NCBI RefSeq assembly: GCF_000380165.1
Contig: NZ_KB904680.1
Location: 124,001 to 188,000, forward strand
Length of the DNA stretch: 64,000 nucleotides
Reading direction: 5' to 3'
Source of the DNA: Wenjunlia vitaminophila DSM 41686
GTDB taxonomy: Bacteria > Actinomycetota > Actinomycetes > Streptomycetales > Streptomycetaceae
Shown: piece after piece, positions 31,992-62,143 of the stretch
How the letters are laid out: each line of letters opens with the position of its first letter
Position numbering within the stretch: position 1 is the first letter of the stretch
Made by a program: the position numbers and the translations under genes
Notes under the pieces: generated by a model
Databases searched by the model: none
What the model was told of the DNA's origin: nothing
What the model saw: the letters and a program-made list of their open reading frames with translations, nothing else

Positions 31992-32009
31992 CGATGGTTC
32001 CTTCCGGTC

Positions 32010-35513: not shown

Positions 35514-36664
35514 GACGCCCCGGCCCCTTCCGCGTCCCGGCCCGAGGCCTCCGCGTGCAGGGCGTGCGCCTCCTCGGTGATGTCGATGGCGACGGGACAC
35601 CACACGATGCACCGGCCGCAGCCCACGCAGCCCGAGCTGCCGAACTGGTCGTGCCAGGTGCCGATCTTGTGGGTGAGCCACTGGCGGTACCTGCTCAGGC
35701 CGCTGCGCCGCACCGTCCCGCCGTGCATGTGGGTGAAGTCCAGGTCGTAGCAGACGTCCCAGCGCCGCCACCGCTCGGCGTGCTCCCCGGTGAGGTCGGT
35801 GACGTCCTCGGTGGTGGTGCAGTAGCAGGTCGGGCAGACCATGGTGCAGTTGCCGCAGGTGAGGCAGCGTGCGGCGACGTCGTTCCAGCGCTCGGCCTCG
35901 AGGGTGTCGCGCATCAGGTCCCGCAGGTCCACCGGGGGCATGGTCCGCCCCATGCGCCCGGCGGCCCGGGTGACGGCCTCCTCGGCCCGGGCGACGGTGG
36001 TGGGGTCGGCGGGCCGCACGGGGAGTTCCGCCAGGACCTCGGCCCCCGCCTCGCTGCCGGCGCGCACCCAGAACCGGTGGCCCCGTTCGTCGTCCACCTC
36101 GGTCAACGCCAGGTCGTGGCCCCCGTGCACAGCCGGTCCCGTGCCCATGGAGACGCAGAAGCAGGTGGCTCCGGGCTCGACGCACTCCACCACCACCAGG
36201 AACGCCCCGGTGCGCCTGCGCCGGTACGCCTCGTCCCGGTGCGGGCCGCCGACCAGCACCCGGTCCTGCACCGCGATGGCGCTCAGGTCACAGGGGCGGA
36301 CACCCAGGAAGGCGTACGCCGGTGGCCGGTCCACCTCCTCGCGCACCGTCAGGGTGCCGTCGGGGCCGCGGTCGGCGGTCCACTGCCGCACCCGCTCCGG
36401 GTGCAGGTACTTCTTCCAGGACTGCGGACCGGCGCTGTGCGCGAACGCCATCCGGTCCGACCTGCGACGCAACCGGTAGCGTCCGGCCTCCACCTCCACG
36501 CCCCAGCCGAACGGCAGCTCACTGGCCGACGTCAGTTCCGCCAGCACGATCGCGTCGTCACGCACCGTCGGTCCCACCACGGTGCGCCCGCGCCGGACCA
36601 GCGCCTGGCGCAGCGCCTCCAGGCCGTCCGGTCCCATCACGGCCTGCCGCGTCGGCTCCGTCAT
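35510..36664 (-). CDS. Hydrogenase beta subunit, 4Fe-4S dicluster protein
   Basis: A protein of 384 residues; the ATG overlaps the hypC stop (ATGA) and the stop overlaps the next GTG. The N-terminal two thirds (AFLGVRPCDLSAIAVQDRVL, ATCFCVSMGTGP) match the sulfhydrogenase beta/anaerobic sulfite reductase A family. Two C-x2-C-x2-C-x3-C ferredoxin motifs follow: CLTCGNCTMVCP near residue 265 and CVGCGRCIVWCP near residue 345. It links the gamma flavoprotein to the delta-alpha hydrogenase core. Confidence 0.88.
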   Translation of the reverse strand: MTEPTRQAVMGPDGLEALRQALVRRGRTVVGPTVRDDAIVLAELTSASELPFGWGVEVEAGRYRLRRRSDRMAFAHSAGPQSWKKYLHPERVRQWTADRGPDGTLTVREEVDRPPAYAFLGVRPCDLSAIAVQDRVLVGGPHRDEAYRRRRTGAFLVVVECVEPGATCFCVSMGTGPAVHGGHDLALTEVDDERGHRFWVRAGSEAGAEVLAELPVRPADPTTVARAEEAVTRAAGRMGRTMPPVDLRDLMRDTLEAERWNDVAARCLTCGNCTMVCPTCYCTTTEDVTDLTGEHAERWRRWDVCYDLDFTHMHGGTVRRSGLSRYRQWLTHKIGTWHDQFGSSGCVGCGRCIVWCPVAIDITEEAHALHAEASGRDAEGAGAS

Positions 36665-36978
36665 GGCCGGCCCGCCCCCCGTCGGGGTTGTGCGGGTCCC
36701 TCGTGTGCCCGCTGGTCCGACGGCGGCAGCGGCTCGCCGAGCTCGCCCTCCACCACGTCTCCCATCGCGCGCAGCACCTCGAGGGTGCGCCGGGCCTCGG
36801 CCTCGTGCACCGTGGTGATGGCGAAGCCGACGTGGACGATCACGTAGTCACCGCTGGCCGCCGTGGGCGTGTACGTGAGGCACGCCTCACGGCGCAGCCC
36901 GCCGAAGTCGATCGTTCCCATGCGCAGGCCCTCGTCCTGGTGGACGTCGATCACGCGCCCCGGGATGCCCAGGCACAC
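36661..36978 (-). CDS. hypC: [NiFe]-hydrogenase maturation chaperone HypC
   Basis: A protein of 105 residues from GTG 36978. It begins MCLGIPGRV, with the essential Cys2 that holds the Fe(CN)2CO unit, and contains GDYVIVHVGFAITTVHEAEA, as in all HypC/HupF proteins. About 25 extra C-terminal residues are proline/arginine-rich. It abuts hypF and overlaps the beta-subunit gene. Confidence 0.95.
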   Translation of the reverse strand: MCLGIPGRVIDVHQDEGLRMGTIDFGGLRREACLTYTPTAASGDYVIVHVGFAITTVHEAEARRTLEVLRAMGDVVEGELGEPLPPSDQRAHEGPAQPRRGAGRP

Positions 36979-39345
36979 TTACGGTGTCTCCCTTCCCAGG
37001 CGGGCGGCGGCCACCGCGGCCTGCCCGAAGCTGACGCCCCCGTCGTTGGGCGGCACCGCGCGCCCGACCAGCACCCGCAGTCCGGCTCCCCGCAGCCGCC
37101 CGCTGACCTCGTCGAGCAGGCGGAGGTTCTGGAAGCAGCCCCCGGACAGGCACACCGGGCCCGGGGCGCCCTCGGCCACGGCGCGCTCAACGAGACCGGC
37201 CGTGGCCAGGGCGACGGCCGAGTGGAACGCCGCGGCCAGGCACGGCACGGGGACGCCGTCCGCGGACCCGCGCAGCAGGGCGGTGAGGGTGGGCAGCGGG
37301 TCGTACACCCACACGCCGTCAGCCGCCCGCACCAGCCGCCAGGGCAGCGGCTCGGGACGCAGGTCGCCGGCGGCGGCCTCCAACGCGACCGCCGCCTGTC
37401 CCTCGTAGCTGACGCGGTGCCGCAGCCCGAGGATGCTGGCGGCGGCGTCGAACAGCCGCCCGGCGCTGGACGCCCGGGGGCAGTTCACCCCGCGCTCGAC
37501 CACCTCCCGCACCGCGCGGGCCTCCCCGTCACCGAGGCCCGACGCGTAGGCGTCCACCAACGCCGGGTCAGCGGCGGGCGAGCCCAGGTCCTCGGCGCCG
37601 AGGAGGTACCCGAGCGCCATCCGGCCCGGTGCCCGGACGGCCGCGGCCCCTCCGGGCAGCGGAGCCGTGGCGAACCGGCCCGCCCTGCGGTACCCGGCGA
37701 GGTCGCACACCAGGACCTCCCCACCCCACAGGGTGCCGTCGTCGCCGAACCCGAGACCGTCCAGGGCGACCCCCACGAACGGCCCGGGGAGGCCGTGTTC
37801 CGCGGCGCAGGCCGCGACGTGGGCGTGGTGGTGCTGCACCGCGACGCGGCGCCCTGCGGGCCAGCGCGCCGCCCACTGCGTGGACAGGTAGCCGGGGTGC
37901 AGGTCGTGCACCACGACCTGTGGGTCGATCCGGCAGAGCCGGGAGAGCTGCCCGTACGCCCGTTCGAAGGCGTCCGCGGTGCCCGCGTCCTGGAGGTCCC
38001 CGAGGTGCGGCCCGATCACCGCCCTGTCCCCCGACACCAGGGTGAACGTGTGCTTGAGCTGCGCCCCCACCGCGACCAGCGGTACCGGGCTGGGCAGCGG
38101 CAGCCGCAAGGGGGCCGGAGCGTACCCCCGGGCGCGGCGGACGGTGAGGACGCCCCGGTCGGTGGCGCACACCACCGAGTCGTCACACCGGCTGTGGATC
38201 GCCCGGTCGTGTCCGAGGAAGCCGTCCGCCACGGGCCCGAGGCGTTCCCTGGCCTCCGCGTCGTCGATGACGATCGGCTCCCCCGCGAGGTTGCCGCTGG
38301 TGCACACCAGGGGGCGGCCCACGTCCCGCGAGAGCAGGTGGTGCAGCGGGCTCGCCGGCAGCAGGACGCCGACGCGTCCGGTGCCCGGGTGGACGCCCGC
38401 GGCGACCCCCGAGGACCGCCCGCGCGCCGGCACCAGCGTGACCGGGCGGGCGGCGGAGGCGAGCAGGGCCCGCTCCGCGTCCCCGAGACGGGCCAGCCTC
38501 AGCGCCGCGTCCAGGTCCGGCACCAGCACCGCGAACGGCTTGTCCGGACGCCGCTTGCGGCGCCGCAGCCCGGCCACCGCGCGGTCGCTGGTGGCGTCGC
38601 ACACCAACTGGTAGCCCCCGACCCCCTTGACCGCGACCACCGCCCCGTCGATCAGGGCCCGCACCGCGGCGCGCAGGGCCTCCTCGCCCCCGCGGGTCGA
38701 GGCCGGCGACCACCAGGACAACCGGGGCCCGCAGTCAGGGCACGCCAGCGGCTCCGCGTGGAAACGCCGGTCCTGCGGGTCCGCGTACTGGGCCGCGCAC
38801 GCCGCGCACAGCGGGAAGTCCCGCATCGTGGTGCGTTCCCGGTCGTACGGCAGGTCGGTGATGACGGTGGCGCGCGGACCGCACGCGGTGCAGTTGGTGA
38901 ACGGGTAACGGTGCCTGCGGTCCGCGGGGTCGAAGAGCTCGCGCAGGCACTCGGCGCACACGGCCGCGTCCACCGGGACCTCGCGGACCGACGGCTCCCC
39001 GGCCCCGACGCTGTCCAGCACCGCGAACCCCGAGCCGGGAACCACCGCCCCGGGGTCGAGCTGACCCACCGTGACCTCGGCGACCACCGCGAGCGGCGGG
39101 GCCTGGTCCCGACAGCGGGCGACGAACTCCCGGAGGCCACCGGGGGTTCCGGCCGCGGCGGCGAGGACGTGCCCGTCCACGTTGCGCACCCAGCCGTCCA
39201 GGCCCAGCGCGGTGGCGGTGCGGTACACGAAGGGTCGGAAGCCCACCCCCTGCACGGTGCCGGAGACCTCGACCCGCCACGCCTCCCTGCCCCCGACCGC
39301 CGCCCTGTCGCCCGCCACGCCCGTCGCCGCGGCCGCCCCGGTCAC
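36979..39345 (-). CDS. hypF: Carbamoyltransferase HypF
   Basis: A protein of 788 residues with the complete domain series: acylphosphatase (VSGTVQGVGFRPFVYRTATA, residues about 27-46), two zinc fingers (CAECLRELF to FTNCTACGP, CAACAAQYA to ACPDCGP, about 125-205), a YrdC-like domain (about 220-400) and a Kae1/TobZ-like carbamoyltransferase (HHHAHVAACAAEHGL near 508, LSGGCFQN near 735). It makes the carbamoyl group passed to HypE Cys. GTG 39345 overlaps the protease stop. Confidence 0.95.
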   Translation of the reverse strand: MTGAAAATGVAGDRAAVGGREAWRVEVSGTVQGVGFRPFVYRTATALGLDGWVRNVDGHVLAAAAGTPGGLREFVARCRDQAPPLAVVAEVTVGQLDPGAVVPGSGFAVLDSVGAGEPSVREVPVDAAVCAECLRELFDPADRRHRYPFTNCTACGPRATVITDLPYDRERTTMRDFPLCAACAAQYADPQDRRFHAEPLACPDCGPRLSWWSPASTRGGEEALRAAVRALIDGAVVAVKGVGGYQLVCDATSDRAVAGLRRRKRRPDKPFAVLVPDLDAALRLARLGDAERALLASAARPVTLVPARGRSSGVAAGVHPGTGRVGVLLPASPLHHLLSRDVGRPLVCTSGNLAGEPIVIDDAEARERLGPVADGFLGHDRAIHSRCDDSVVCATDRGVLTVRRARGYAPAPLRLPLPSPVPLVAVGAQLKHTFTLVSGDRAVIGPHLGDLQDAGTADAFERAYGQLSRLCRIDPQVVVHDLHPGYLSTQWAARWPAGRRVAVQHHHAHVAACAAEHGLPGPFVGVALDGLGFGDDGTLWGGEVLVCDLAGYRRAGRFATAPLPGGAAAVRAPGRMALGYLLGAEDLGSPAADPALVDAYASGLGDGEARAVREVVERGVNCPRASSAGRLFDAAASILGLRHRVSYEGQAAVALEAAAGDLRPEPLPWRLVRAADGVWVYDPLPTLTALLRGSADGVPVPCLAAAFHSAVALATAGLVERAVAEGAPGPVCLSGGCFQNLRLLDEVSGRLRGAGLRVLVGRAVPPNDGGVSFGQAAVAAARLGRETP

Positions 39346-39935
39346 CCCCGCCGCCCCGCCCCGCTGCCGGCGACGCCGCCGGCGACGCCATCCGCGATGT
39401 CGTCCGCGAGGTCGTCCGCCTCCGCACGGCCCCGTGCGGAGGCGCGCTCCGCCGCGCGGTGGCGCAGGATCTCCTGCCTGACGCGTTCCGCCAGCGGCGC
39501 CACCGCCGCACGCACCGGCGCGGACAGACCGGTGCCGAGGGACGAGTCCGCGCCCTCCACCGCGAACACCACCAGGCGCGGCGGCAGGTGGCCGAGGACC
39601 CGGGCGAGCTCCACGGCCTCACCGAGCCCCAACCCGTGCGAACTCGCCGACGCGGACGCCCGCAGCTCACCCCCGGTGACCTCCAGCCGGTGCACCCGTC
39701 CGGGACACCCGGGGTGCGCGTGCGCGGCATCGACGACGACGCACAGGGCCGCGCCCCGCCACGTCCCGATCAGCCGGCCCGGGTCGCCGTCGGACACCGT
39801 CAGGACCACCCCGTCCAGCGAGGAGGTCCGCTCGGCGAGTTCGGCCAGGCGCCCGACCACCGCCCAGCCCACGCCGTCGTCCCGCCTGAACTCGTTGCCC
39901 ACGCCGACGACCACCGTCCGGCCGTTCCCGCTCAT
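39342..39935 (-). CDS. Hydrogenase maturation endopeptidase (HyaD/HycI family)
   Basis: ATG 39935 follows GGAGAGC, giving 197 residues. The nickel-sensing residues of the M52 family are visible: VVVGVGNEFRRDDGVGWAVV near the start (the acidic ligand in FRRDDG), VVVDAAHAHPG near 75 and ASSHGLGLGEAV near 103 (His). It removes the short C-terminal tail of the large subunit once nickel is inserted. The C-terminal 30 residues are low-complexity. Confidence 0.9.
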   Translation of the reverse strand: MSGNGRTVVVGVGNEFRRDDGVGWAVVGRLAELAERTSSLDGVVLTVSDGDPGRLIGTWRGAALCVVVDAAHAHPGCPGRVHRLEVTGGELRASASASSHGLGLGEAVELARVLGHLPPRLVVFAVEGADSSLGTGLSAPVRAAVAPLAERVRQEILRHRAAERASARGRAEADDLADDIADGVAGGVAGSGAGRRG

Positions 39936-43102: not shown

Positions 43103-45670
43103 TCAGGTGGTGGGGGTGGGGGTGCAGGTGCGGTCGCCGATGAAGGCGTTGTCGACGGCCCACCAGCCGGAGTTCTGACCGCGGTAGTGCAGGCGGTACC
43201 TCACGGTCGTCCGGTCGGCGGCCTGGGGGACGGCGACGACCTGGTTGGCGGTGCCGGCCTCGGCGGCGTAGCCGTGGGCGGACCAGACGGTCTCCCAGGT
43301 CCTGCCGCCGTCGAGGCTGAGGTCGACGGAGGTGGTGGAGTTGACGGCGGGTTCGAGGTGCTGGCCGAAGTCGATGGTGGCCTCGGTGCGGCCGGTCATG
43401 TCGTAGGTGGGGCTGGTGAGGTAGGTGTCCTGGAGGTACCCCTTGCCGGAGTTGCGGGAGTCAACGATGGCGAAGGAGCCGTCGCCGCCGGTGTGGTTGC
43501 CCCGCTCCCCGGGGTCGGTGAACTGCCAGCCGGGCTGGTAGCGGTAGTTGGGGATCTCCGGGTCCACGTTGGTGACGGTCCAGCCGCGCGGAGCCTTGGC
43601 CTGGGAGAACGTCTCGGTGGTGCCGTCGCGGGTGACCTGGTACCCGCGGGCGGTGCACTCCAGCGCCACGGTCAGGCCCACGTCGAGGCTCCGGCCGGTG
43701 GTGCCGAGGGTCAGGGTGCGGGTGGTCGGGTCGTAGCCGGGTTCGGTGGCGGTGTAGGTGAGGGTGTAGGCGGTGTCGGGGAGCAGCGGCAGGGTGTAGG
43801 CGCCGGTGGAGGGGTCGGTGGTGGCCGACCACCGGTGGCCCCTGCCGTCGTCGGCGACGACCTTCGCGGCCAGGCCCCAGCCCTGCCCCGAGCCGTCGGT
43901 GACCTTCCCGGTGACGTCCACCCGCTGGGTCGGGTTCAGGGCCGGGCTGTGGGTGAGGGCCTGGTCCTTGGTGAGGGTGAGCGCGGTGGTGTCGGTGACG
44001 TAGCCGAACGCGGACGCGGACACCTGGTAGTCGCCGGCGACCAGCCGCAGCGTGTACGTGCCGTTGGCCGGCACGGTGAACCTGCGGTTGACCGGCCCGG
44101 TGACGGAGACCTCGGCGCCGGGCAGGGGCTGACCGGTGTCGGCGTCCGTGACGGTGCCCGACAGCGTGGCGGTGCCGGCGACACCGACGTTCACCAGCGC
44201 GAGGGCGTCCAACCGGCCCTCGCCGTAGACGTTGTTGTTGGCCGCGGTTCCGCCGCAGGTGGTGTCGTCGGTGTCGATCGCGGACAGGTCCAGCAGGTCA
44301 CGGGTGGCCTGGATGTCGTGGGCGTACTCCGGCCGGGCCGACCACAGCAGCGCGACCGCGCCGGCGGTGTGCGGGGCCGCCATCGACGTCCCGGACATGA
44401 GCTGGTAGCCGTTGCCGGGCGCCGCCGAGCGGATGTTCACCCCGGGCGCGGAGATGTCCGGCTTGACCGTCCCGTCCTGGCCGGGACCCCGGCTGGAGAA
44501 CGAGGCGATGGTGTTGTCGCTGTCGTAGGCGCCGACCGAGTAGTTGAGGGTGCGGCTGCCCGGTGTGCCGGAGGTCCTGCAGGCGGGGCCCTCGTTCCCG
44601 TTCGACCAGATCCCCATGATCCCCGAGGCCGCCCAGGCCTCCTGGACGTCCTCGAACAGTGGCTCGTCGGACGGGTTCACGCTGCCCCACGAGTTGTTGA
44701 CGATGTCGGGGCGCCTGGCCGGGTCCGGGTTCTGCCCGTTGGCGTCGGTGGGCGCGAGCATCCACTGCGACGCGGCCAGCAGATCGACGTCGGAGCAGGT
44801 GGCGCAGCCGTTCGCGGTGATCCACCGCACCCCGGGGGCCACCCCGATCTGGTTGCCGGCGCCGTCGTCCCCGGCCATGGTGCCCATGGTGTGGGTGCCG
44901 TGGCCGTTCTTGTCACACGGCCCCGCGCCCTTCTCGCACGCGCCGGAGGTGTCGAACCAGTTGTAGTCGTGGGTGAAGGTGCCGTCGCCGTTGTTGCCCC
45001 GGTACTGCCGCACCAGCGCCGGGTGGTCGAACTGCACCCCGGTGTCGATGTTGGCGATGACCACGCCCTCACCGCTGCGCCCGGTCTGCGCCCAGACGTC
45101 GTCGGCGTTGATGTTGGCCACGCCCCACTCCAGGCCGCCCGCGGCGGCCGAAGCGGGCTCGGACTCCACCGGCTCGGGCGGGGCGTACGTCCTGGACACC
45201 CGCACCTCGGCGACGTCGGCGCGGGCGGCCAGCGTCCGCACCACGGACTCCGGCGCGTCCTGCACGAACACCGCATTGGTCACCCAGAACGACCTGGTGC
45301 GCAGGCCCTCGGCCCTGAGCAGCGAGCGCACCGGGGCCTGGGAGTCGGCGGCGGTGGCCTTCAGGTCGGCGACGACCTCCCGGCCCCGGGCGGTGTCGTC
45401 GGTGAGCCGCCGCGCGGACGTGAGGTCGGTGTCCTCGACGAGGCGCACCCACACGTCAGCGGTCTCGGCGGTGGCGTAGGCGGCGGCCAACTCCGGGGCC
45501 ACCTTCGGTTCCGCCCGGGCCGACGTGGCCGGTCCGGCGGCCGAGGGCGCCCCGTCCTTCGGGGCGTCCCCGCCGGTCTGGGCCATCGCCGGCGCCAGGG
45601 CCCCGGCGACCAGCGCCAACGTGCACGCCGCCACCGAGGCCAGCCCGGCGGTGGAACGAGGAGTCCGCAT
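43103..45670 (-). CDS. Secreted subtilisin-like S8 serine protease with carboxypeptidase-regulatory-like modules
   Basis: ATG 45670 has GGAGGG at good spacing (the in-frame GTG 45676 overlaps the previous stop and is an alternative), giving 855 residues. A Sec signal (residues 1-30) and a prodomain (to about 175) precede the S8 domain with an intact triad: Asp in VVIANIDTGVQFDHPAL, His in KNGHGTHTMGTMAGD and Ser in SGTSMAAPHTAGAVALL; NNSWGS holds the oxyanion Asn. After the catalytic domain (to about 505) come two Ig-like/CarboxypepD_reg modules (SGTVTDADTGQPLPGAEVSV, TGKVTDGSGQGWGLAAKVVA) and a jelly-roll C-terminal region. It is the only catalytically complete protease of its operon. Confidence 0.9.
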   Translation of the reverse strand: MRTPRSTAGLASVAACTLALVAGALAPAMAQTGGDAPKDGAPSAAGPATSARAEPKVAPELAAAYATAETADVWVRLVEDTDLTSARRLTDDTARGREVVADLKATAADSQAPVRSLLRAEGLRTRSFWVTNAVFVQDAPESVVRTLAARADVAEVRVSRTYAPPEPVESEPASAAAGGLEWGVANINADDVWAQTGRSGEGVVIANIDTGVQFDHPALVRQYRGNNGDGTFTHDYNWFDTSGACEKGAGPCDKNGHGTHTMGTMAGDDGAGNQIGVAPGVRWITANGCATCSDVDLLAASQWMLAPTDANGQNPDPARRPDIVNNSWGSVNPSDEPLFEDVQEAWAASGIMGIWSNGNEGPACRTSGTPGSRTLNYSVGAYDSDNTIASFSSRGPGQDGTVKPDISAPGVNIRSAAPGNGYQLMSGTSMAAPHTAGAVALLWSARPEYAHDIQATRDLLDLSAIDTDDTTCGGTAANNNVYGEGRLDALALVNVGVAGTATLSGTVTDADTGQPLPGAEVSVTGPVNRRFTVPANGTYTLRLVAGDYQVSASAFGYVTDTTALTLTKDQALTHSPALNPTQRVDVTGKVTDGSGQGWGLAAKVVADDGRGHRWSATTDPSTGAYTLPLLPDTAYTLTYTATEPGYDPTTRTLTLGTTGRSLDVGLTVALECTARGYQVTRDGTTETFSQAKAPRGWTVTNVDPEIPNYRYQPGWQFTDPGERGNHTGGDGSFAIVDSRNSGKGYLQDTYLTSPTYDMTGRTEATIDFGQHLEPAVNSTTSVDLSLDGGRTWETVWSAHGYAAEAGTANQVVAVPQAADRTTVRYRLHYRGQNSGWWAVDNAFIGDRTCTPTPTT

Positions 45671-45672
45671 GG

Positions 45673-46914
45673 TCACTTCCCTCCACAGGTCAGGTGGGCC
45701 AGCAGTTGGCCACTGCGGACCTGGGGCATCGGGACCGGTCCGTTCGGGGGCTCGATCGTCGCGGCCTCACCCACGGCCCACACCTCGTTCGGGCCGGCTC
45801 CTTCGATGGCCACGTAGTCGTAGATGTACTCGCTCGGCTGGGCACCCTGCGGCTTGACCTCGGTCCATGCCGTGCCGTCCCAGTGCGCCACCATCACCTG
45901 GGTGTACGAGGGGGCGACCACCGCCCAGACGTCGTCGGTGCCCGCGACGTACACGTCACGCACGTACGAGGCGTCGAACTGGCCCCGGGGAACGTCCGGG
46001 ACGGCGTCCCACCGCTCGCCGTCCCAGCGGGTCAGCACGGGCTTCCACGTGGTCGGGTCCAGGGGGCTGCCGGTCATCCCGCCCAGCCAGACGTCGCCGG
46101 CGCCGTCCACGTCGATCGTGAAGACCTGCGCCGTGGCCAGTTCCTCGGGCAGCGTCACCCGCTGCCACGCCGTGCCGTCGTAGCGCAGGACCAGGGCCTG
46201 CGCGTTGCCTTCGGCGTCCCGACCGGAGCCCGCGGCCCAGACGTCGGTGGCGGAGACCGCCGCCACCTTCTGCAGGTACGCGTACCGCGTGCCGGCCGCG
46301 GGCTGGTCCACGACCGTCCACCGGGTGCCGTCCCAGTGCTCGATCAGGGCCCCGGACGAGCCCACGTTGCCGACCGCCCAGGCGTCGTCGGGTGCCACCG
46401 AGGCGACACCGGCCAGTTCGGCGCCGCCCTCCGCCGGCCTGGGCGACACCGCGCCGGGCACCAGCGTCCACCGGGTGCCGTCCCAGCGGGCCAGTGGGTT
46501 TGCCATGTTCAGTCCCATGGTGGGGATGTCACCGGAGACCATGGCCCAGCCGCTGCTCGGGGAGTCGTAGGACATGCCGGTGGTGCGGAAGAAGCCCTGG
46601 TCGATGCCGACGGGTCCGGGTATCTGGGCGTCGTCCTCCCGCAGGGCGGTGCCGTCCCAGGTGAGGGTGCGGCTCCCGCCGCCCTGCCGGTTCTCGGCGA
46701 AGACGACGTCGTTCTTGCCGTGCACGGTGACGGCGCTGATCTTGGCGTCGGTCTGGACCGGCGCCTGTTCGACGGTCCAGGTGGGGGTGCAGGCCCGTGG
46801 GGCGGCCCCGGCCGCGGGGGTGCCCGTGGTGAGGACGGTGGTCAGCAGGGCCGCGGTGCCCAGGGCGACCGCGCCCCGGCGGAGCCGTCCGCGTGGACGA
46901 GTGGGTGTGTTCAT
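45673..46914 (-). CDS. Secreted beta-propeller protein
   Basis: A protein of 413 residues with a signal peptide of about 37 residues (RGAVALGTAALLTTVLTTGT). At least five repeats of the form WDGTxW...V, DDVWAVG recur (LIEHWDGTRWTVV, PDDAWAVGNVG, VLRYDGTAWQRV, VLTRWDGERWDAVPD, DDVWAVVAPS, AHWDGTAWTEV, NEVWAVGEA). This repeat builds a kelch-like or Sialidase-type propeller and is common in actinomycete surface proteins that bind polymers or proteins. Two cysteines (RACTP and LTCGGK) can tie the ends of the propeller together. It has 4-9-base junctions with its neighbours, so it is co-translated with the protease genes. Confidence 0.75.
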   Translation of the reverse strand: MNTPTRPRGRLRRGAVALGTAALLTTVLTTGTPAAGAAPRACTPTWTVEQAPVQTDAKISAVTVHGKNDVVFAENRQGGGSRTLTWDGTALREDDAQIPGPVGIDQGFFRTTGMSYDSPSSGWAMVSGDIPTMGLNMANPLARWDGTRWTLVPGAVSPRPAEGGAELAGVASVAPDDAWAVGNVGSSGALIEHWDGTRWTVVDQPAAGTRYAYLQKVAAVSATDVWAAGSGRDAEGNAQALVLRYDGTAWQRVTLPEELATAQVFTIDVDGAGDVWLGGMTGSPLDPTTWKPVLTRWDGERWDAVPDVPRGQFDASYVRDVYVAGTDDVWAVVAPSYTQVMVAHWDGTAWTEVKPQGAQPSEYIYDYVAIEGAGPNEVWAVGEAATIEPPNGPVPMPQVRSGQLLAHLTCGGK

Positions 46915-46923
46915 GCCGGTCTC

Positions 46924-48168
46924 CTAGAAGGCGCCGGTGCCGTTGGGGGTGCCCATGCCGCTGGGCCCGTCGTAGCCGCGGGTCGCGGTGCAGAGCTTGT
47001 CTCCGCCGCAGGCGCCGTTCGCGCCGGCGGTGATGTCGAACAGGTACTGGGCGTTCTTGTACGGGCGCTGCGCGGCGGGGGTGGTGGTGTCGGTGCCGGC
47101 CAGGCCGTACACGCCGGCGACGAACGAGGACGACACCGGGGTGCCGACGACGTTGCTCCAGCCGCCCAGGTTGCTGCTGTAGATCCGCACCGGTGTGCTG
47201 TAGGCGCCGACGGCGGCGACGTCGGCGACGGTGCGGCGGTCCCCGCAGGCGTCCTTCCGCTGCCAGGACGCCTTCTTCTCGTAGAGCGAGCAGCCCGAGC
47301 CGGTCGACGACCAGGCGCGCTCCGCCCAGCCCCGGGCGCTGCCCGGGTCCGCGAACAGCTCGGTGGCGCCGACCGCGACCACGGAGTTGTAGGCCGAGGG
47401 CATGAGCTGCCGGCCGTCGGTGTTGAAGCCCTGCCCGGCCTGGGCGGTGATCGCCACACCGGGGTGGTCGAAGGACTTCGCGTACGCCGACTGGCCCTCG
47501 AACTCGTAGTAGGCCCACATCACGGTGACCGCGTCGGCGCCCTGGTCCACGGCCTGGTCGACCGCGGCGGCCATGCTCTGCGGGGTCTCGTCGTCGGCCT
47601 CGACCAGCAGCAGGTCGCAGTTCGGGCAGGCGGCGGACGCCATCTGCAGGCCGACGGCGCCGTGCGCCTGCCAGTTGGGGTTGGCCGGCGGGAGGGTCTC
47701 CCCGCCGCGTTGGTTGACCTTGCGGAAGCAGCCGCGCTCCGCGCCGCACTCCGAAAGACCGCTGCCCTCCCGGTAGGCGGCCAGGTCGAAGGCGGCGCTG
47801 GTGTTGTCGTAGGGGACGACGACGGCGATGGTCTGCCCGCCGCCGAGCCAGTCCGAGCGCAGGTTGTACGCGTCCTGCAACTCCGCCGCCGTCAGCCCGC
47901 CACCGACGGTGTTCGGGCCGACCGACGTGCCGTCGTCGTCGGTGACGACGGAGAGCAGGCACAGCGCCTCGCCGGTGTCCCGCGGACAGGCCGGGCGGGT
48001 GGTGGCGCCGTCGGAGCCCTGGGGCGCCGTGGCCGCCCCCCGGGGGCTGTTCGCCGAGCCGGGGGTGGCGAGGGCGGTGAGGACGGTGACCAGCGACACC
48101 GCCGCCACCGCCACGGTGCGGCGCAGGCGTCTGCCCGGCCGGGTCTGTTCTTCCTGCCGTGAACGCAT
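46924..48168 (-). CDS. Secreted sedolisin-like (S53) protein lacking the catalytic residues
   Basis: A protein of 414 residues with a signal peptide (about 1-40). The fold is that of the short actinomycete S53/S8 family: LTAAELQDAYNL, TIAVVVPYDNTSAAFDLAAY, ASAACPNCDLLLVEA, HPGVAITAQAGQGF, NSVVAVGATELF. However, the catalytic Glu/Asp helix, normally GEAALDVDM, reads HGAVGLQM, so both acids are gone. The nucleophile motif GTS reads GTPVSSSFVAGVYGLAG, so Ser is replaced by Pro. The protein should be proteolytically inactive while keeping the binding groove. It lies between the protease-domain-less protein and the propeller in one operon. Confidence 0.8.
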   Translation of the reverse strand: MRSRQEEQTRPGRRLRRTVAVAAVSLVTVLTALATPGSANSPRGAATAPQGSDGATTRPACPRDTGEALCLLSVVTDDDGTSVGPNTVGGGLTAAELQDAYNLRSDWLGGGQTIAVVVPYDNTSAAFDLAAYREGSGLSECGAERGCFRKVNQRGGETLPPANPNWQAHGAVGLQMASAACPNCDLLLVEADDETPQSMAAAVDQAVDQGADAVTVMWAYYEFEGQSAYAKSFDHPGVAITAQAGQGFNTDGRQLMPSAYNSVVAVGATELFADPGSARGWAERAWSSTGSGCSLYEKKASWQRKDACGDRRTVADVAAVGAYSTPVRIYSSNLGGWSNVVGTPVSSSFVAGVYGLAGTDTTTPAAQRPYKNAQYLFDITAGANGACGGDKLCTATRGYDGPSGMGTPNGTGAF

Positions 48169-48184
48169 CTGGGTCTCCTGGCGG

Positions 48185-50704
48185 TCAGCCGGCGAGCCGG
48201 TACGCGCGGATGTTCGTCTGGGTGACGGCGTTGCCGTCGGTGTCCTCGGCGGTCACCCGCAGCGACACCCACCGGTTCGCGTCGGAGTACTCCGGGTGCG
48301 TGACCGACGCGGTGAGCGCACCGTCGGCCCGGCGTTGCGCCGCCTTCGGCGCCGACCAGGTCCGGCCGTCGTCGTAGGACACCTCGACGGTGCCGGTCAC
48401 GCCCTCCGGGGCGGCCTGGTGCTGCTGGTGCGACACCCGGAACGCGACGTCGAGGTCCGTGCCGGCGGCGGCGCGTCCGTTGACGTCCAGGGCCAGGTCG
48501 TAGTGGACGAACAGCAGCGGCAGGAACGAGCAGGACACCGCGGGGTCCCAGCAGACGGCCCGATCGGGGAGCGACGCCGCCGGGTCGGTCGGCGAGGAAC
48601 GGAACGTCCAGTCGGTGGTGTTCTTCGACTCCGGGGTGCCGGGGTCCGCTGCGCTCACGGTCAGGCGGTAGTCCGCCGGGCCGGGCACCAGGGGCAGCGC
48701 CAGCGGCGAGGGCCGCAGGTCGCTGATGGCGGTCCCGCTGTCGTAGGCCAACGCGCCGTCGCGGTAGAACCGCACCGCCGTGTCCGGGGCGTAGGCCGCG
48801 GCGTGCAGCGGGTCGGAGTCCCCGACGAGGTTGGCGTAGACCATGCCCAGGTCACCCTGGCGGCAGGCCAGGCAGGCCTGGAGCAGCGGGTCGCTGAGAC
48901 TCGGCGTCGGCGACATGCTCAGGCCGTAGCTGGGAAGCTGCGCGTAGGGGGCCGTGGCGCTCGGCACGTCCGGGCCCTTGTTCCACACCTCCTCGATGAC
49001 CTGCCCGGGGCGGACCTTGCGGCGCGGGCTGAGGATGGCCTCGCCCGCGTTCGGAAGCACCTGGGTCTGCCAGACCACCTGCTCCGGCCGGGTGGAGTAC
49101 AGGTAGTCGGTGCGCGGGCCCGCCGCCGGGTTGAGGCCGAGCCCCCAGGTGTCCAACGTCCACGGCAGTTGCACCAGGTTGAGCCGGTGCTGCGGCGCGC
49201 CGGGCTCCGTCCCGTCGACCGGTGTGTTGTACAGCTCCGACCTGACCGTGGTGAGGTCCGCCACCTTGACGGTGTACGTCAACGAGGCGGGAATCCCGCC
49301 CTCCTCCGGGAAGACCAACTGGTACGTCGGGGCGTCGCCGATCGGGTCCTCCAGCCCCTCGCTCAGGGCCGTGGTCCCGACGAAGTCGAACTCCCCCTTG
49401 GTCACCGGGCTGGTCGGCGTCGCGAACAGGCCACGGTTGCCGTTGTACGGCTCGGAGCTCAGCCCCATGTTGAACCGGCCGAGCAGGGCCGACAGCCACT
49501 CGGGGGTGACGCCGGAGACGTCGCCCCTGACGCCGGTGCGCAGGAACCCGATGAACTCGCTGCGGACCATGTCCCGGTCGGCGCCGTTGTCCAGGCCCAC
49601 CCGGTACGGCACGGCCCGCCGGGCGTCCAGCGTCACCGTGGTGTCCCTGGTGACCTTCACCTCCGGCTCGACCACCAGCGCCGCCCGGCTCGACAGGTCG
49701 TCGGCCGGCCCGGTGAACACGCTGGCCATCAGGGAGTACGTGCCCTCGGGCACGACGAACGACTTGGTGCCCTCGCTGCCGGGGAAGGCCAGGCCGACGT
49801 TGGCCAGCCGCCCGTCGTCGACGTTCTGCACGAAGCCGACCATCACCCCGGGGTTGCCGTCCCGGTCGATGCCGTTCACGGTCAGGGTGCGGTACCGCAG
49901 GCCCTTGGCCGACGTCTCCGACGCGGCGGTGGTGGCCGCCATCGGGTCGGCGGGCAGCTTCGGGGCGCCGGACGGGACGGCCAGGCCGATCCGGTCCACC
50001 CCGGGCAGGGCACCGACCGTGGCGTCGTGGGTCGCGGCGGTACGCCAGCGGCTGGCCAACAGCCGGCCCAGGCCCGCGGCGTCCTTCTTGGTCACCGTGG
50101 CTCTCACCCGGTCCGCGCCGGTGGTGGTGGTGACACGGGTGCCGGGCAGCGCCTCGGCGGTGGCCCGGCTCGCCTCGACGGTGACCGGCAGGCCGCTGGT
50201 GTGCCGGTCGTCCAGCTCCGCCCGCACCAGATAGCCGACGTTGAACAACCGGGCGTCCAGCGTGGACCCCAGGTACGGCACCGCCTCCGCCGGCACCACG
50301 TAGGTGTCCCCGGCGAACGTGAAGTGGGTGAACGTGCCCCCGGCCCGGTCCTCGCGCCCGGCCCGCGGCGCCGGGGTGGCGCTCTGGCTGCCGTCGGCCG
50401 CCACGCTCACCAGGAACCGGTCACCGGTCAGCAGCGTGACGGTGGTGGACGTGACCACCGGCGGCTCGGCGTCCTCGGCGGTGGCCGGCTGGCCGGCGGG
50501 GGCAGCGCCCGGGACGACCGGGGCCGCGGGCGTGTGGGCCGCCGCGGCGGTGGCCGGGGGGTCGGCCGTCGGGGAGACCGCGGCGGCGCCGGCCAGGCCG
50601 GCGCCCGCGGTGAGGGTGACGACGACGCCGATCACGCCGACCCGGGGCGGGCGCAGCCGGGGACGTGTTCGGGTCAATGCCGCGATCACGCGGAATCTCG
50701 ACAC
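48185..50704 (-). CDS. Secreted protein with subtilase accessory domains but no protease domain
   Basis: GTG 50704 follows CTGGAGGAACTC, giving 839 residues with a signal peptide of about 45 (VGVIGVVVTLTAGAGLAGAA). Residues about 85-245 resemble the propeptide region of large Streptomyces subtilases (TTVTLLTGDRFLVSVAADGS, FAGDTYVVPAEAVPYLGSTL, DARLFNVGYLVRAELDDRHT). At the point where the Asp-His-Ser domain should begin, a short linker leads straight into the family's C-terminal accessory region (LRYRTLTVNGIDRDGNPGVM, SFVVPEGTYSLMASVFTG, TRDTTVTLDARRAVPYRVGL). The rest is beta-rich and ends in a domain with VEVSYDDGRTWSAP. No catalytic motif exists. It may act as an inhibitor, chaperone or binding partner for the operon's active subtilisin. 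Confidence 0.72.
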   Translation of the reverse strand: MSRFRVIAALTRTRPRLRPPRVGVIGVVVTLTAGAGLAGAAAVSPTADPPATAAAAHTPAAPVVPGAAPAGQPATAEDAEPPVVTSTTVTLLTGDRFLVSVAADGSQSATPAPRAGREDRAGGTFTHFTFAGDTYVVPAEAVPYLGSTLDARLFNVGYLVRAELDDRHTSGLPVTVEASRATAEALPGTRVTTTTGADRVRATVTKKDAAGLGRLLASRWRTAATHDATVGALPGVDRIGLAVPSGAPKLPADPMAATTAASETSAKGLRYRTLTVNGIDRDGNPGVMVGFVQNVDDGRLANVGLAFPGSEGTKSFVVPEGTYSLMASVFTGPADDLSSRAALVVEPEVKVTRDTTVTLDARRAVPYRVGLDNGADRDMVRSEFIGFLRTGVRGDVSGVTPEWLSALLGRFNMGLSSEPYNGNRGLFATPTSPVTKGEFDFVGTTALSEGLEDPIGDAPTYQLVFPEEGGIPASLTYTVKVADLTTVRSELYNTPVDGTEPGAPQHRLNLVQLPWTLDTWGLGLNPAAGPRTDYLYSTRPEQVVWQTQVLPNAGEAILSPRRKVRPGQVIEEVWNKGPDVPSATAPYAQLPSYGLSMSPTPSLSDPLLQACLACRQGDLGMVYANLVGDSDPLHAAAYAPDTAVRFYRDGALAYDSGTAISDLRPSPLALPLVPGPADYRLTVSAADPGTPESKNTTDWTFRSSPTDPAASLPDRAVCWDPAVSCSFLPLLFVHYDLALDVNGRAAAGTDLDVAFRVSHQQHQAAPEGVTGTVEVSYDDGRTWSAPKAAQRRADGALTASVTHPEYSDANRWVSLRVTAEDTDGNAVTQTNIRAYRLAG

Positions 50705-50819
50705 GAGTTCCTCCAGTCGGTGGAAGTCGGTGGAAGTCGGTGGAAGGGGAGAGGGGGAGCGGCGCGCCCGGGCCCGCCGGGGCGGGCCGCCGGGGGCGAG
50801 GGGCCCGGGGCGTGGCGCG

Positions 50820-51032
50820 TCAGAGCAGCTCGAAGCCCTCGGGTGGAGGGGAGGGAGCGGGTGGCTGCGGCTCCGCGTCGCCGGACGCCGGGTCGGTTGA
50901 CGCCCCGCCGGGCCCCGGGGTGGGGCCGGCTGCCGGCGGTGGGGCGTTCTCGTCCTCCGGCGGGGGCTCCGATCCCGTGCCCCGTGGTGGGGCGGTGTGA
51001 CGATCGCCTGGTGGCGGTGCGGTGTCGGACAT
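50820..51032 (-). CDS. Proline-rich 70-residue peptide, precursor-like
   Basis: ATG 51032 follows GGAGGG at 8 bases. The product is almost entirely Pro, Gly, Ala, Glu, Asp and Thr (MSDTAPPPGDRHTAPPRGTG ... PPPEGFELL), with no signal peptide, cysteine or tryptophan. The only hydrophobic part is the C-terminal GFELL. It lies 61 bases after the LAL regulator stop and 115 bases before the 839-residue exported protein. A disordered leader with a short distinct C-terminus fits a peptide precursor or a small disordered partner; both are guesses. Because of the strong SD and position I regard it as real, but compositional bias could mimic an open frame here. Confidence 0.5.
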   Translation of the reverse strand: MSDTAPPPGDRHTAPPRGTGSEPPPEDENAPPPAAGPTPGPGGASTDPASGDAEPQPPAPSPPPEGFELL

Positions 51033-51093
51033 GACCGCAACCCTCCGCTCGGGAGGCACCCCCGGGTATGGGGAGAGGGGTAAGCAGAATTGC

Positions 51094-54033
51094 TTACCGC
51101 TCGCCCCCGGACGGCCCGAAGCTACGCATATACACGCTCAGTTCCACGCGTGAGCGCAGGTCAAGGCGGTGCAGTATGGCGCTGAGGTGCTTGTCGACGG
51201 TGCGGGTCGAAAGGAAGAGACGGCGGGCGATCTCACGGTTGGTCAGGCCCGCGGCGGCGAGCTCGGCCACCTCCCGCTGCCGGGGGGTCAACGCGGCCTC
51301 GGGGCCCGTCGCCGCGTCGCCGGCCCGCTCCTCCTCCGGCCCGGGGCGCCTGGCCACCGTCGGCCGCAGCCCGTTGCGGCGGGCCAGCCGGGCCGCCCGG
51401 TCGACGTCCCACCGCGCCCCCAGCCGCGTGTACCCGTCGATGGCCCCGAGCAGTGCCGCCCCGGCGCCGGCGTCCCCCGCGGCGAACAGGCACCGCGCCG
51501 TGTGCTCCGTGGCCTGCGCCGCCTCGTACCCGAGCCCCAGCGCCCGGAACCCCTCGGCCGCGGCGGTCAGGTGCCGGGCGGCGGCCCCGCCGTCCTGACC
51601 GGCGGCCAGCAGACCACGGGCGTGGTCCAGGGTGGGGGCGATCAGCGGGAGGTCGAGGCCGACGAGGTGACGCTCGTACCTGGCCACGGTCGCCTGCGCG
51701 GCGCTCCGGTGGCCGGCCTGGAGCAGCGCCTCGACCAGCGCGGGCAGGGCGCAGACCCCCACCGCCCACAGCTCCTGGTCCTCCCAGTCGGCGATGTCGG
51801 CGGCGCACTCGTCGAGCACCGCGGCGCTCGCCCGCCGCGCCACCGCGAGCCGCAGCAGGGCGGTGACCACCATCGGCATGAGCGAGACCAGACCGCCTTC
51901 CCGGATCCGGCGCACCACGTCGCGGAAGAGGTCCCCGGCGTGGTCCAGCTCCCCCGTCGCCAGCATCAGGCAGGCCCAGGCCGCGTCCACGGCGCCCCGG
52001 TCCGCCGGGCGCTGGATCATCTCCCCGTGCAGGAACGCGAACTCCTCCGCCAGGCCGTCCCAGGAGCCGGTGCGGAACCGGGCCGCGGCGGCGTACGCGC
52101 GGGCGCAGATCTCGGGGAACCCCCCGGCGTCCAGCGCGACGGCACCGTCCAGCGCGGCCTCGAGGAACCGGTCACCCGCCTCGCCCCGCCCCACCTGGTG
52201 GGCGGCGAGCCCCACCGAGTAGTACGCGCTGATCTCACTGCGCTGCCGGGGGCGGCCGTCGGTCTCCGCGGTGATCCGGTCGGTGAGTTCCACCCACCGG
52301 GGGTCGCCCCGCCACACGTACGCCATCGCCACCTTGCCGAGCAGGAACATCCGCAACGTGCGGTCCCCGCCCTCCGGGTAGGTGCGCAACGCCCGCTGGA
52401 GCCACCGGTCCTGCTCGGCCCACGGGAGCCCGGGACGGCCGTACCAGCCCAGCGCGACCATCGCCCAGGCCGCCAACTGCGGCTGCTGCTCCAGGTGCTC
52501 CACGGCCTCCGCGAGGAGCCGGTACCGGTCCGCCCGGTCCGACATCGGCCCCTTCAGGTCCTGGTGCATCGCCAGCAGGAACAGCAGCTCACCGCGGACC
52601 GCGGGGGTCGGGTCGTCCTCGAGCACCGCCGTCAACAGGTCCGCCACGTCGGGCAGGTGCAGCATCCGGGACGCGTCCCAGCCCAGCCGGACCGTCAGCC
52701 GCTCGCGGTGCCCGGCGGACAGCGGGGCGTGGCGCAGCACGTCCTGGAGGAGCCGTGCGGCCTCCGCGTGGTCGCCCAGCGCCCTGGCCTGGTCCGCGGC
52801 CCGCTCCGCGGCGTCCACCCACTGCGCGGTGCGGCCGGCCTCCCGCAGGTGGTGCGCCATCCGCCCCAGCGGCACCGGGGTGACCTCACGCAGCGCGTCG
52901 GCGGCCCGGGCGTGCAGGTGCGCCCGCCGGCTCGCGCCGATCTGGTCGTGGATCGCCTGGGCGGCGAGCACGTGCCGGAACGCGACCCCCTGGTCCCGCT
53001 CCAGCAGCAGACCGGACTCCAACGCCTCGTCCAGCCCGTCCGCCGCCTCCGCCTCGGTGAGTCCGCAGACGTCGGCGAGCAGCCCCGGCCGGGCCGTGGT
53101 CTGGAGCACCGCCGCGGCCTCGAGCAGCGCCCGCGCCGGCTCCGACAGCCGGGCCGCGCGTTCCCGCACCGGGTACCGCACGCCGGCGGGGACCTCGAGC
53201 TGCTCCAGCGCCCGACGCACCCAGCCGCCCTCCCACGGGATCAACTCCCCGCGCACCCTCAGCAGGGCCAGCAGTTCCTGGACGGCCAGCGGCAGCCCGG
53301 CGCTGCGTTCCCGCACGTGCTCGGCGAACGCCTCGGACACCGCGTCCGTCCCCAGGATCACGCCCACCAGGTCCCGGGTCTTCGCCGCGTCCAACGGCTC
53401 CAGGGCGAGGTGGTCCCTGGTCACCGCGTCCGGCAGCCGGGTGGCGAGCGCCTGCACGTCGGGGCTGGTCTCGTCCCCGCGGTAGGTCAGCACGACGGAC
53501 AGCCCGACCGGGGCTCGGGACAGCAGGTAGCCGAGGAACTCCACGGTCTGCTCGTCCGCCCAGTGCAGGTCCTCCATCACCAGCACCACCGGGCCGAGCG
53601 CGGCCAGGACCTCCCGCAGCCCGCGGAACAGCCGGTGCCGCTCCGCCGCTCGGTCGTCCAACGGTTCCGGGGCCGGCGGCAGCACGTCGCCCAGCTCCGG
53701 GAGCAGCCCCCGCAGCGCCCCCGCCACCGGGCTCAACGCCGCCCCTTCCGCGAACGCGTGGCCGGTGTCGCGCAGCGCGTCCACCACCGGGCCCAGCGGG
53801 AACGGCTCCCGGATGCGGGCGCAGGCTCCGGTGAGCACCCGCCGCCCGGCCAACTCCGGGTGCCCGGCCAGCTCCGCCACCAGACGGGACTTGCCGATCC
53901 CCGGCTCGCCCTCGACCACGGCCAGCGCCGGGGCGTGACCGACCGTGGCCACCAGCCGGGCCAACTCCGCGCCCCGGCCGACCAACGTGTGGGAGACCAC
54001 CCGGCCAGCAGGTGGCGGGCCCTGTGTGCTCAT
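51094..54033 (-). CDS. LAL-type LuxR family transcriptional regulator
   Basis: A protein of 979 residues. An N-terminal STAND/AAA ATPase domain carries Walker A VVEGEPGIGKSRLVAELAG (residues about 38-56), Walker B VVLVMEDLHWADEQ near 157 and DRDLAL-type sensor regions. A long helical TPR-like region covers about 350-880. The C-terminus is a LuxR/GerE HTH (ALTPRQREVAELAAAGLTNR, IARRLFLSTRTVDKHLSAIL). LAL regulators need ATP and usually activate an adjacent operon. The gene is the first of a minus-strand run with the peptide and exported-protein genes, so autoregulation with its targets is likely. Confidence 0.9.
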   Translation of the reverse strand: MSTQGPPPAGRVVSHTLVGRGAELARLVATVGHAPALAVVEGEPGIGKSRLVAELAGHPELAGRRVLTGACARIREPFPLGPVVDALRDTGHAFAEGAALSPVAGALRGLLPELGDVLPPAPEPLDDRAAERHRLFRGLREVLAALGPVVLVMEDLHWADEQTVEFLGYLLSRAPVGLSVVLTYRGDETSPDVQALATRLPDAVTRDHLALEPLDAAKTRDLVGVILGTDAVSEAFAEHVRERSAGLPLAVQELLALLRVRGELIPWEGGWVRRALEQLEVPAGVRYPVRERAARLSEPARALLEAAAVLQTTARPGLLADVCGLTEAEAADGLDEALESGLLLERDQGVAFRHVLAAQAIHDQIGASRRAHLHARAADALREVTPVPLGRMAHHLREAGRTAQWVDAAERAADQARALGDHAEAARLLQDVLRHAPLSAGHRERLTVRLGWDASRMLHLPDVADLLTAVLEDDPTPAVRGELLFLLAMHQDLKGPMSDRADRYRLLAEAVEHLEQQPQLAAWAMVALGWYGRPGLPWAEQDRWLQRALRTYPEGGDRTLRMFLLGKVAMAYVWRGDPRWVELTDRITAETDGRPRQRSEISAYYSVGLAAHQVGRGEAGDRFLEAALDGAVALDAGGFPEICARAYAAAARFRTGSWDGLAEEFAFLHGEMIQRPADRGAVDAAWACLMLATGELDHAGDLFRDVVRRIREGGLVSLMPMVVTALLRLAVARRASAAVLDECAADIADWEDQELWAVGVCALPALVEALLQAGHRSAAQATVARYERHLVGLDLPLIAPTLDHARGLLAAGQDGGAAARHLTAAAEGFRALGLGYEAAQATEHTARCLFAAGDAGAGAALLGAIDGYTRLGARWDVDRAARLARRNGLRPTVARRPGPEEERAGDAATGPEAALTPRQREVAELAAAGLTNREIARRLFLSTRTVDKHLSAILHRLDLRSRVELSVYMRSFGPSGGER

Positions 54034-59189: not shown

Positions 59190-59885
59190 GTGAACGACAC
59201 CTTTGACGTTCCCGGCGGGGAGATGGCCAACCGTCCGGCACACTTCATCTGGCTGCTCGACTGTTCGGGCTCCATGAGTGTCAACGGCAAGATCGGCGAG
59301 TTGAACTTCGCCATCCGGGAGGCCATACCCGAGATGCAGCAGGCGGCGCTGTCCAACCCCGCCGCCTCGTTGCTCGTCCGGGCCGTCACCTTCGCCAGCG
59401 GCGCGAACTGGCACATCGGGGAGGCGACCCCGGTGGACCGGTTCACCTGGGAGGACGTCCACACCTACGGCGCCACCGACATGGGGGCCGCGTTCCGCCT
59501 GGCGGCGTCCGCGCTGCAGACCCCGCCGATGCCGCTGCGCGCCCTTCCGCCGGTGCTCGCGCTGGTCTCCGACGGCCAGCCCACCGACGACTGGCGCTCC
59601 GGCCTGCGCGCCATCGACGACACCCCGTGGGGCAAGCGCGCGGTGCGGGTGGCGGTCGCCATCGGGGACGACGCGGACAAGCGCATGCTGAAGGAGTTCC
59701 TCGCCAATCCCGAGCTCGAGCCGTTGTTGGCGAAGAACCCGCGGCAGCTCGCCGCCGCCATCCGGTGGATGTCCACGGCGGTGGTGAAGGAGGCCTCCGC
59801 GCCGAAGGTGGAGGACGCCAGGCCCGGTCCCGTGCTGCCGACGCTGCCGCTGGACAAGCACAACCCCGGCGAAGACATCTGGTGA
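59190..59885 (+). CDS. TerY-type von Willebrand factor A domain protein
   Basis: A protein of 231 residues from GTG 59190. The MIDAS metal site is complete: WLLDCSGSMS (D24, S26, S28), the threonine in YGATDMG (about 94) and the aspartate in LVSDGQPTDDW (about 127). The helical tail NPRQLAAAIRWMSTAVVKEA is typical of TerY. TerY-like vWA proteins form the first element of the TerY-P triad (vWA, PP2C, kinase) defined by Anantharaman, Iyer and Aravind, in which phosphorylation by the kinase is reversed by the phosphatase. The stop overlaps the next start (GTGA). Confidence 0.88.
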   Translation: MNDTFDVPGGEMANRPAHFIWLLDCSGSMSVNGKIGELNFAIREAIPEMQQAALSNPAASLLVRAVTFASGANWHIGEATPVDRFTWEDVHTYGATDMGAAFRLAASALQTPPMPLRALPPVLALVSDGQPTDDWRSGLRAIDDTPWGKRAVRVAVAIGDDADKRMLKEFLANPELEPLLAKNPRQLAAAIRWMSTAVVKEASAPKVEDARPGPVLPTLPLDKHNPGEDIW

Positions 59886-62122: not shown

Positions 62123-62143
62123 CGGCGCGCCCCTGATGTGACG

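Follow-up and report, generated by a model that had tools for sequence, protein, structure and literature searches.

According to excerpts of the published accounts (PMC6199464, PMC4619724, PMC12880746), the Csp proteins of clostridia (CspB, CspA, and CspC) form a set in which pseudoproteases control an active subtilisin-like protease. Here we describe six adjacent genes, all on the minus strand at positions 54033-43103 of a 64,000-nucleotide (nt) stretch of the Wenjunlia vitaminophila DSM 41686 genome (hereafter, the window). They resemble the Csp set, as far as those excerpts portray it, in that one active subtilisin-like protease stands together with non-catalytic protease-like partners; in our locus such control is putative. 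The Csp pseudoproteases are subtilisin-like, whereas the dead enzyme of the window resembles the sedolisins (S53). The Csp system is the nearest analogue by mechanism, but the window operon, whose families differ, is not a member of it. The window genes also encode a large ATP-binding regulator of the LuxR family (LAL), a putative beta-propeller, a small peptide, and a predicted secreted protein that we call the companion; to our knowledge, these four have no Csp counterpart.

The locus can also be compared with the S53 family itself and with large subtilases. The window sedolisin and its live relatives align with the catalytic domain of kumamolisin, whereas in the operon form no prodomain was found and the catalytic Glu, Asp, oxyanion Asp, and Ser are all lost. 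Large actinobacterial subtilases (more than 900 amino acids [aa]) have flanks like the companion, but the companion itself is without an S8 domain. A further comparison is with pairs of a companion and a live sedolisin, which have the same order and homologous proteins but possess an intact sedolisin, with no subtilisin or propeller in the stretches covered. In the open-access literature we found no description of a sedolisin pseudoprotease or of such an operon, and no paper on the two-gene pairs.

We think, with a probability of roughly 55%, that the window genes represent a conserved, regulated, and secreted protease system in which catalysis passed from the sedolisin to the subtilisin, and that the dead sedolisin was kept as a non-catalytic partner. 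The gene order was read from the open reading frame (ORF) calls and their translations. The first gene (51094-54033) encodes a 979-aa protein with an AAA_16 ATPase domain (PF13191, E 7.1e-22) and a C-terminal LuxR helix-turn-helix (PF00196, E 7.7e-16), and thus has the size (about 900-1000 aa), the N-terminal ATPase, and the C-terminal LuxR helix-turn-helix of a LAL. It is followed by a small acidic proline-rich ORF of 70 aa (50820-51032, read by eye), the 839-aa companion (48185-50704), the 414-aa pseudo-sedolisin (46924-48168), the putative propeller (45673-46914), and the subtilisin, which ends at 43103 and starts at 45676 (GTG) or 45670 (ATG). As for the companion, the listed ORF begins with TTG at 51040, and we judged the GTG at 50704, which lies behind GGAGG, to be the better start. 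The genes were called by codon usage; some starts are wrong, and several long intergenic gaps probably reflect miscalled starts. The last four genes are separated by 16 nt, 9 nt, and a 4-nt overlap and would be transcribed jointly. Their products all begin with a Sec-signal-like segment (basic, then hydrophobic, judged by eye) and are predicted to be secreted. An earlier note on this DNA had described a LAL, a proline-rich ORF, and four further genes in this order, spacings of 9, 4, and 16 bases, a subtilase-like protein without a protease domain, and one complete subtilisin. The ORFs and Pfam matches confirmed the order, and the spacings were correct; the companion has no S8 match in Pfam and only flank homology to subtilases, and the subtilisin has a Peptidase_S8 match with Asp, His, Asn, and Ser all present.

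The full order of LAL, small ORF, companion, sedolisin, propeller, and S8 was found in 11 genomes, that is, in the window and in ten others, which comprise six of the Actinomadura genus group, Nonomuraea gerenzanensis, and three more (loci L155 of Actinomadura harenae, L159 of A. rupiterrae, L236-L239, L240 of N. gerenzanensis, and L247-L249). The LAL match occupies the same position in all 11, although in L238 only a 513-aa piece was called. The gaps among the last four genes ranged from -4 to 85 nt, except for one of 144 nt with a probably miscalled start. Because the order recurs in ten other genomes, the operon is not a product of chance. The earlier note had proposed a regulated multi-part extracellular system and had asked whether any relative keeps the order; its preservation in ten further genomes gives the proposal good support. 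The particular roles that the note suggested, namely inhibition, targeting, or peptide maturation, are hypothetical.

The operons were found in several searches. A genome scan with an alignment of companions gave L155 and L159 among the matches listed, and a scan with the window companion alone gave no match. Identity of these two loci to the window was about 50% for the LAL, 52% for the companion, 56-57% for the sedolisin, 43-44% for the propeller, and 63-64% for the subtilisin. Of 65 genomes searched in the Actinomadura genus group, at least six have the companion type, L155 and L159 included, and all six carry the operon. In the plasmid collection, where two of 13 matched records were examined, an 11.85-Mb record of N. 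gerenzanensis showed the same order. At least six of 150 sampled genomes of Actinomadura's family matched, and the five new loci consisted of three with the full order and two without the subtilisin. In a 148-genome sample of the class, the S8-type companion was seen only in the window's genome among the candidates scored, and six other genomes gave matches that lay in longer frames (1e-31 to 1e-34). The genome searches scored the first 6-16 candidates of each genome, and all such counts are lower bounds.

Compared with its live relatives, the window sedolisin has His in place of Glu, Gly in place of Asp, and Pro in place of Ser, and it is without the oxyanion Asp. The replacement of Glu, Asp, and Ser, which had been noticed from the window alone, was borne out. 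All 11 operon sedolisins are dead. The Glu is changed to His in nine of them, Tyr in one, and Asn in one; the Asp has become Gly in all but one, which has Ala; in every copy the oxyanion Asp is either deleted or replaced, and the Ser is Pro. Their reading frames are all intact, with no stop or frameshift. A sequencing error or a pseudogene was considered and ruled out, because the loss is common to 11 of 11 genomes and no stops occur; for the same reason, it is very unlikely that the catalytic residues would be regained on resequencing. Eight of the ten cysteines of the window protein are present in all 32 sedolisins compared (11 dead and 21 live). The remaining two are present in 11 and 10 of the dead, and in 19 of the live each (30 and 29 of 32).

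The assignment to S53 was obtained with a profile built from the window protein together with nine relatives, which matched kumamolisin (1t1e) in the PDB with E 5.3e-26 over the catalytic domain only. The catalytic columns of the live relatives align with the Glu, Asp, and Asp of kumamolisin; the Ser site of the 1t1e chain holds Ala, which we take to be an engineered change. The window sedolisin is 36.5-45.5% identical to the companion-linked live relatives shown. Searched alone, it matched no S53 structure in the PDB, and its Pfam matches were all below threshold. The alignment starts at residue 183 of the kumamolisin chain, and the Pfam prodomain gave no match in the window sedolisin (E 0.1) or in three relatives (E 0.01). 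Related sedolisins were present in 41 of 61 genomes searched, with up to 23 in one genome; the large expansion lies in one genus (g19, genomes G038-G051), where companion matches also reach eight per genome.

The S8 Asp, His, Asn, and Ser are kept in all 11 operon subtilisins. The window subtilisin matched Peptidase_S8 (PF00082, E 7.8e-43), and carries two CarboxypepD_reg stretches; its C-terminal region shows a weak resemblance to choice-of-anchor J that falls under the cut-off of that family. The propeller protein has a recurring 'DxWAVG...WDGTxW' pattern, seen by eye, with Pfam matches below curated cut-offs, and is a putative beta-propeller; its position is matched in all 11 operons at 30-44% identity. 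In genomes G019 and G021, sedolisins are fused to a segment that resembles the C-terminal half of the window subtilisin (L042:9394-13398 and L043:947-5077; 36-37% identity over about 430 aa), and the L042 protein keeps Glu, Asp, Asp, and Ser. The same accessory domains occur on both the sedolisin and the subtilisin families.

Neither the window companion nor two others gave any Pfam match, and no S8 catalytic domain was found in them; companion-like segments flank the S8 domain on both sides in 60 of 71 S8-bearing relatives longer than 900 aa. A profile search of 101 genomes in the window's family found the companion in at least 18, one of them the window's own, and a single-sequence search found it in 9 of 10 genomes of a genus that belongs to another family of the same taxonomic order. 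We examined 41 of the 46 places found in that genus and all 24 places outside the window in the window's family. Four of the loci are those of Actinacidiphila yanglinensis and three Streptacidiphilus species. A sedolisin follows within the next two called genes on the same strand after 58 of the 66 companions (window included), and five pairs overlap by 4 nt. All 24 sedolisins from the window's family kept the catalytic residues, as did 32 of 33 from the other family; one of the latter (L101) was unreadable at the oxyanion site, and remnants in L071 and L074 were left out of the count. No S8 domain or propeller was detected by tblastn (E 1e-5) in the stretches covered of the 57 pair loci. Companion and sedolisin distances correlate with r 0.82, the best of 2,000 permutations being 0.40. 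In the other-family locus L107 and in L123, L124, L126, and L127, a divergent gene, encoding about 870-900 aa, accompanies the pair and by eye resembles a helix-turn-helix regulator. L107 nests among window-family pairs in both of the earlier trees, made without the other S8 operons, which suggests that the pair moved between families together with its regulator.

Two loci are intermediate in gene content. L250 has a LAL, a small ORF ending in GYEPL, a companion, a sedolisin, and a propeller; L251 has a companion, a sedolisin, and a propeller, with no LAL called before the companion in its stretch. The sedolisins of both are live (Glu, Asp, Asp, and Ser intact), and tblastn found no S8 domain in the 17.0- and 16.5-kb stretches. 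Trees of companions and sedolisins were made from 32 pairs, namely, all 13 that bear a propeller and 19 chosen from the 57 others, with midpoint roots. In the companion and sedolisin trees, a single branch separates the 11 operons from the rest (support 99/97 and 100/100, respectively), and in both trees L250 is next to this branch, followed by L251. Since all other relatives read are live, the direction of change would be from the pair, through addition of the propeller, to addition of the subtilisin with death of the sedolisin. The confinement of the dead sedolisin to the subtilisin-bearing clade points to catalytic displacement. The swap is one evolutionary event, and what recurs across the 11 operons is the retention of both proteins since then. 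In the sedolisin tree the window groups with the Nonomuraea-type operons (support 100/95), whereas in the companion tree this grouping is weak (86/63); it is possible that the window operon was acquired by transfer from that group. Earlier trees that lacked the other S8 operons, in which the window stood on long branches by L140-L143, were superseded by the 32-pair trees.

The proposed mechanism can be considered as follows. The older core would consist of two genes, the first for the companion, which is protease-less and derives from a subtilase, and the second for an active sedolisin that has no prodomain. In one lineage a propeller would have been placed after the sedolisin. A complete subtilisin would have been added next, and in that lineage the sedolisin would have lost its catalytic residues and yet been kept, leaving the subtilisin as the only predicted cutter of the set in the window. 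The companion would bind the sedolisin, live or dead, and the companion and the pseudo-sedolisin are probably bound as their live counterparts would be. We consider it most likely that the companion, the pseudo-sedolisin, and the propeller are non-catalytic partners that dock, present, or choose the substrate, or restrain the subtilisin, and that the LAL, perhaps with the small acidic peptide, switches the set on. Sedolisins favour acid conditions, and the swap may have followed a move from acid to neutral habitats. If our interpretation holds, the locus would offer a rare opportunity to trace catalytic displacement within an operon. It includes a sedolisin pseudoenzyme whose signature is fixed (Pro for Ser), the companion as a family that is unannotated, predicted to be secreted, and linked to sedolisins in several bacterial families, and a conserved small peptide encoded next to LAL regulators. 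The dead sedolisin, the companion, and the small peptide would each allow the reasons for keeping dead proteases to be tested directly. We propose only tentatively that the companion, pseudo-sedolisin, propeller, and subtilisin assemble outside the cell into a single complex. Its active subunit would have been exchanged for an enzyme from a different family, the former enzyme, with its nucleophile fixed as Pro, would have been retained for structure or sensing, and the LAL would be tuned by the conserved microprotein.

Several points weigh against the interpretation that catalysis passed to the subtilisin within a conserved system. The association of S8 with a dead sedolisin occurs in one clade, so that the 11 operons do not count as independent tests of it, and only midpoint roots were used for the trees. 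The distribution is patchy, as seen from the counts in the Actinomadura genus group and in the family sample, and one genome of the window's genus gave no match at the thresholds used. For eight of the 66 companions no sedolisin was called downstream, with remnants (51 and 74 aa) in two of these cases; in L084:5529-8824 the gene that follows the companion is propeller-like (32% identity to the window propeller), and no sedolisin intervenes. In five of the 57 pair loci the stretch covered extends less than 2 kb beyond the sedolisin, and the correlation of distances is expected from linkage alone. The AlphaFold prediction for the pseudo-sedolisin (10 rows) was poor, with a predicted local distance difference test score (pLDDT) of 41.5, and was not used. 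The companion model was weak (pLDDT 65, predicted template modeling score 0.55), mostly beta-strand, with matches to beta-sandwiches only.

The companion model deserves some further description. The best Foldseek match had E 1e-7 but a TM-score of 0.11. In the VIA comparison the best Z was 8.8 over 99 residues, for SleC, and the others were at most 8.0, near the level that the tool calls common. Residues before about 265 were barely probed in these comparisons, and we claim no fold. The match covers residues 267-435 of the model and the N-terminal part of clostridial SleC, at 14% identity. SleC is a substrate of the Csp protease. The likeness is probably a common beta arrangement. It is also a possibility that the companion acts in trans as a prodomain that folds the prodomain-less sedolisin, but at least two sedolisins without a companion upstream (L044 and L046) also start near the catalytic domain.

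As another explanation, the companion and the pseudo-sedolisin may be an inhibitor or shield that restrains its own subtilisin until this is placed, or that restrains foreign proteases. The invariant change of Ser to Pro and the retained cysteines suit a binding protein, as does the mostly beta-strand nature of the companion in its weak model. However, the companion accompanies live sedolisins in the pairs, which means that it did not originate as a dead enzyme's partner, and the subtilisin has an N-terminal extension of its own, which may serve as a propeptide, judging by its position only. We regard this explanation as unlikely.

It is quite unlikely, too, that the genes are an ordinary protein-scavenging operon in which the sedolisin became redundant once the subtilisin arrived and is slowly decaying. 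In such a case the coincidence of catalytic loss with the presence of S8 and the abundance of related sedolisins would be natural. The ratio of nonsynonymous to synonymous substitutions (dN/dS, NG86) gives further grounds for it. In four comparisons of Actinomadura-group operons the values for the pseudo-sedolisin were 0.65, 0.43, 0.44, and 0.34, and those for the subtilisin were 0.45, 0.41, 0.38, and 0.43, all NG86 values being rough owing to high GC content. That is, the pseudo-sedolisin exceeds S8 in three of the four, meaning looser constraint. In the comparisons of the window with L155 and L238, the values were 0.65 and 0.86 for the pseudo-sedolisin against 0.52 and 0.59 for the subtilisin. 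These values, too, belong with the points that weigh against our interpretation. On the other hand, the values of the pseudo-sedolisin in the Actinomadura group are similar to those of the companion (0.44-0.57; propeller 0.48-0.75, LAL 0.25-0.30), its frame is intact in every operon, the identical change of Ser to Pro occurs in all, and its operon position is kept. Taken comprehensively, the pseudo-sedolisin looks constrained, somewhat less so than the active subtilisin.

The remaining elements concern regulation. A small ORF rich in Asp, Glu, and Pro, picked by eye among small ORFs, lies between the LAL and the companion in all 11 operons, and no signal peptide was evident in it by eye. Its C-terminus is GFELL in the window and HEPL in Nonomuraea (L240) and L247-L249. 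The six Actinomadura-group operons carry W-V-[DNK]-A, and the stop after this motif is lost in three of the six (L155, L159, and L236). Among the pairs of the window's family, a LAL, a small ORF, or both lie upstream in 7 of 24 loci. In the clade of L140-L143 a small ORF ending in GYEPL or GYEPV precedes the pair, with a LAL before three of the four; in L132, L134, and L135 there is a LAL and no clear small ORF. The small ORF adjoins the LAL gene in the 11 operons, in L141-L143, and in L250, with L140 as the exception, and this closeness suggests that the small acidic peptide is a regulatory partner of the LAL. That the small peptide is instead a substrate matured outside the cell by the subtilisin under guidance of the pseudo-enzymes, as its constant place between the regulator and the secreted genes and its partly conserved C-terminus (GFELL, GYEPL, HEPL) might suggest, is very improbable, because it has no visible signal peptide, neither an exporter nor a modifying enzyme is among the called genes of the operon, the Actinomadura group has a different C-terminus (WVDA type) with the stop lost in half of its operons, and the position beside LAL genes suits a regulatory role better.

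As for the sites at which such a regulator might act, the motif AATGGGTGAT, chosen by eye, occurs with at most one mismatch upstream of the companion in nine of the 11 operons (L155, L159, L236-L238, L240, and L247-L249), and one mismatch off also in L134 and L135. It is possible that this is a LAL operator in the operons that have it. With at most one mismatch it is absent from the window, L239, L250, L132, and L141-L143, and we therefore dropped it as the window's own operator. An inverted repeat with 17-nt arms (88% complementary) and a 4-nt spacer spans the end of the LAL gene in the window (51070-51107) and is a possible operator or attenuator. In N. gerenzanensis (L240:1954-2985), a second propeller-like gene, 28% identical to the window propeller, lies directly upstream of the LAL.

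Elsewhere in the window, the translations at 29845-39935 resemble [NiFe] hydrogenase and hyp-type maturation proteins. Three adjacent genes at 59190-63919 resemble, by eye, those for a von Willebrand A protein, a PP2C phosphatase, and a kinase-like protein.

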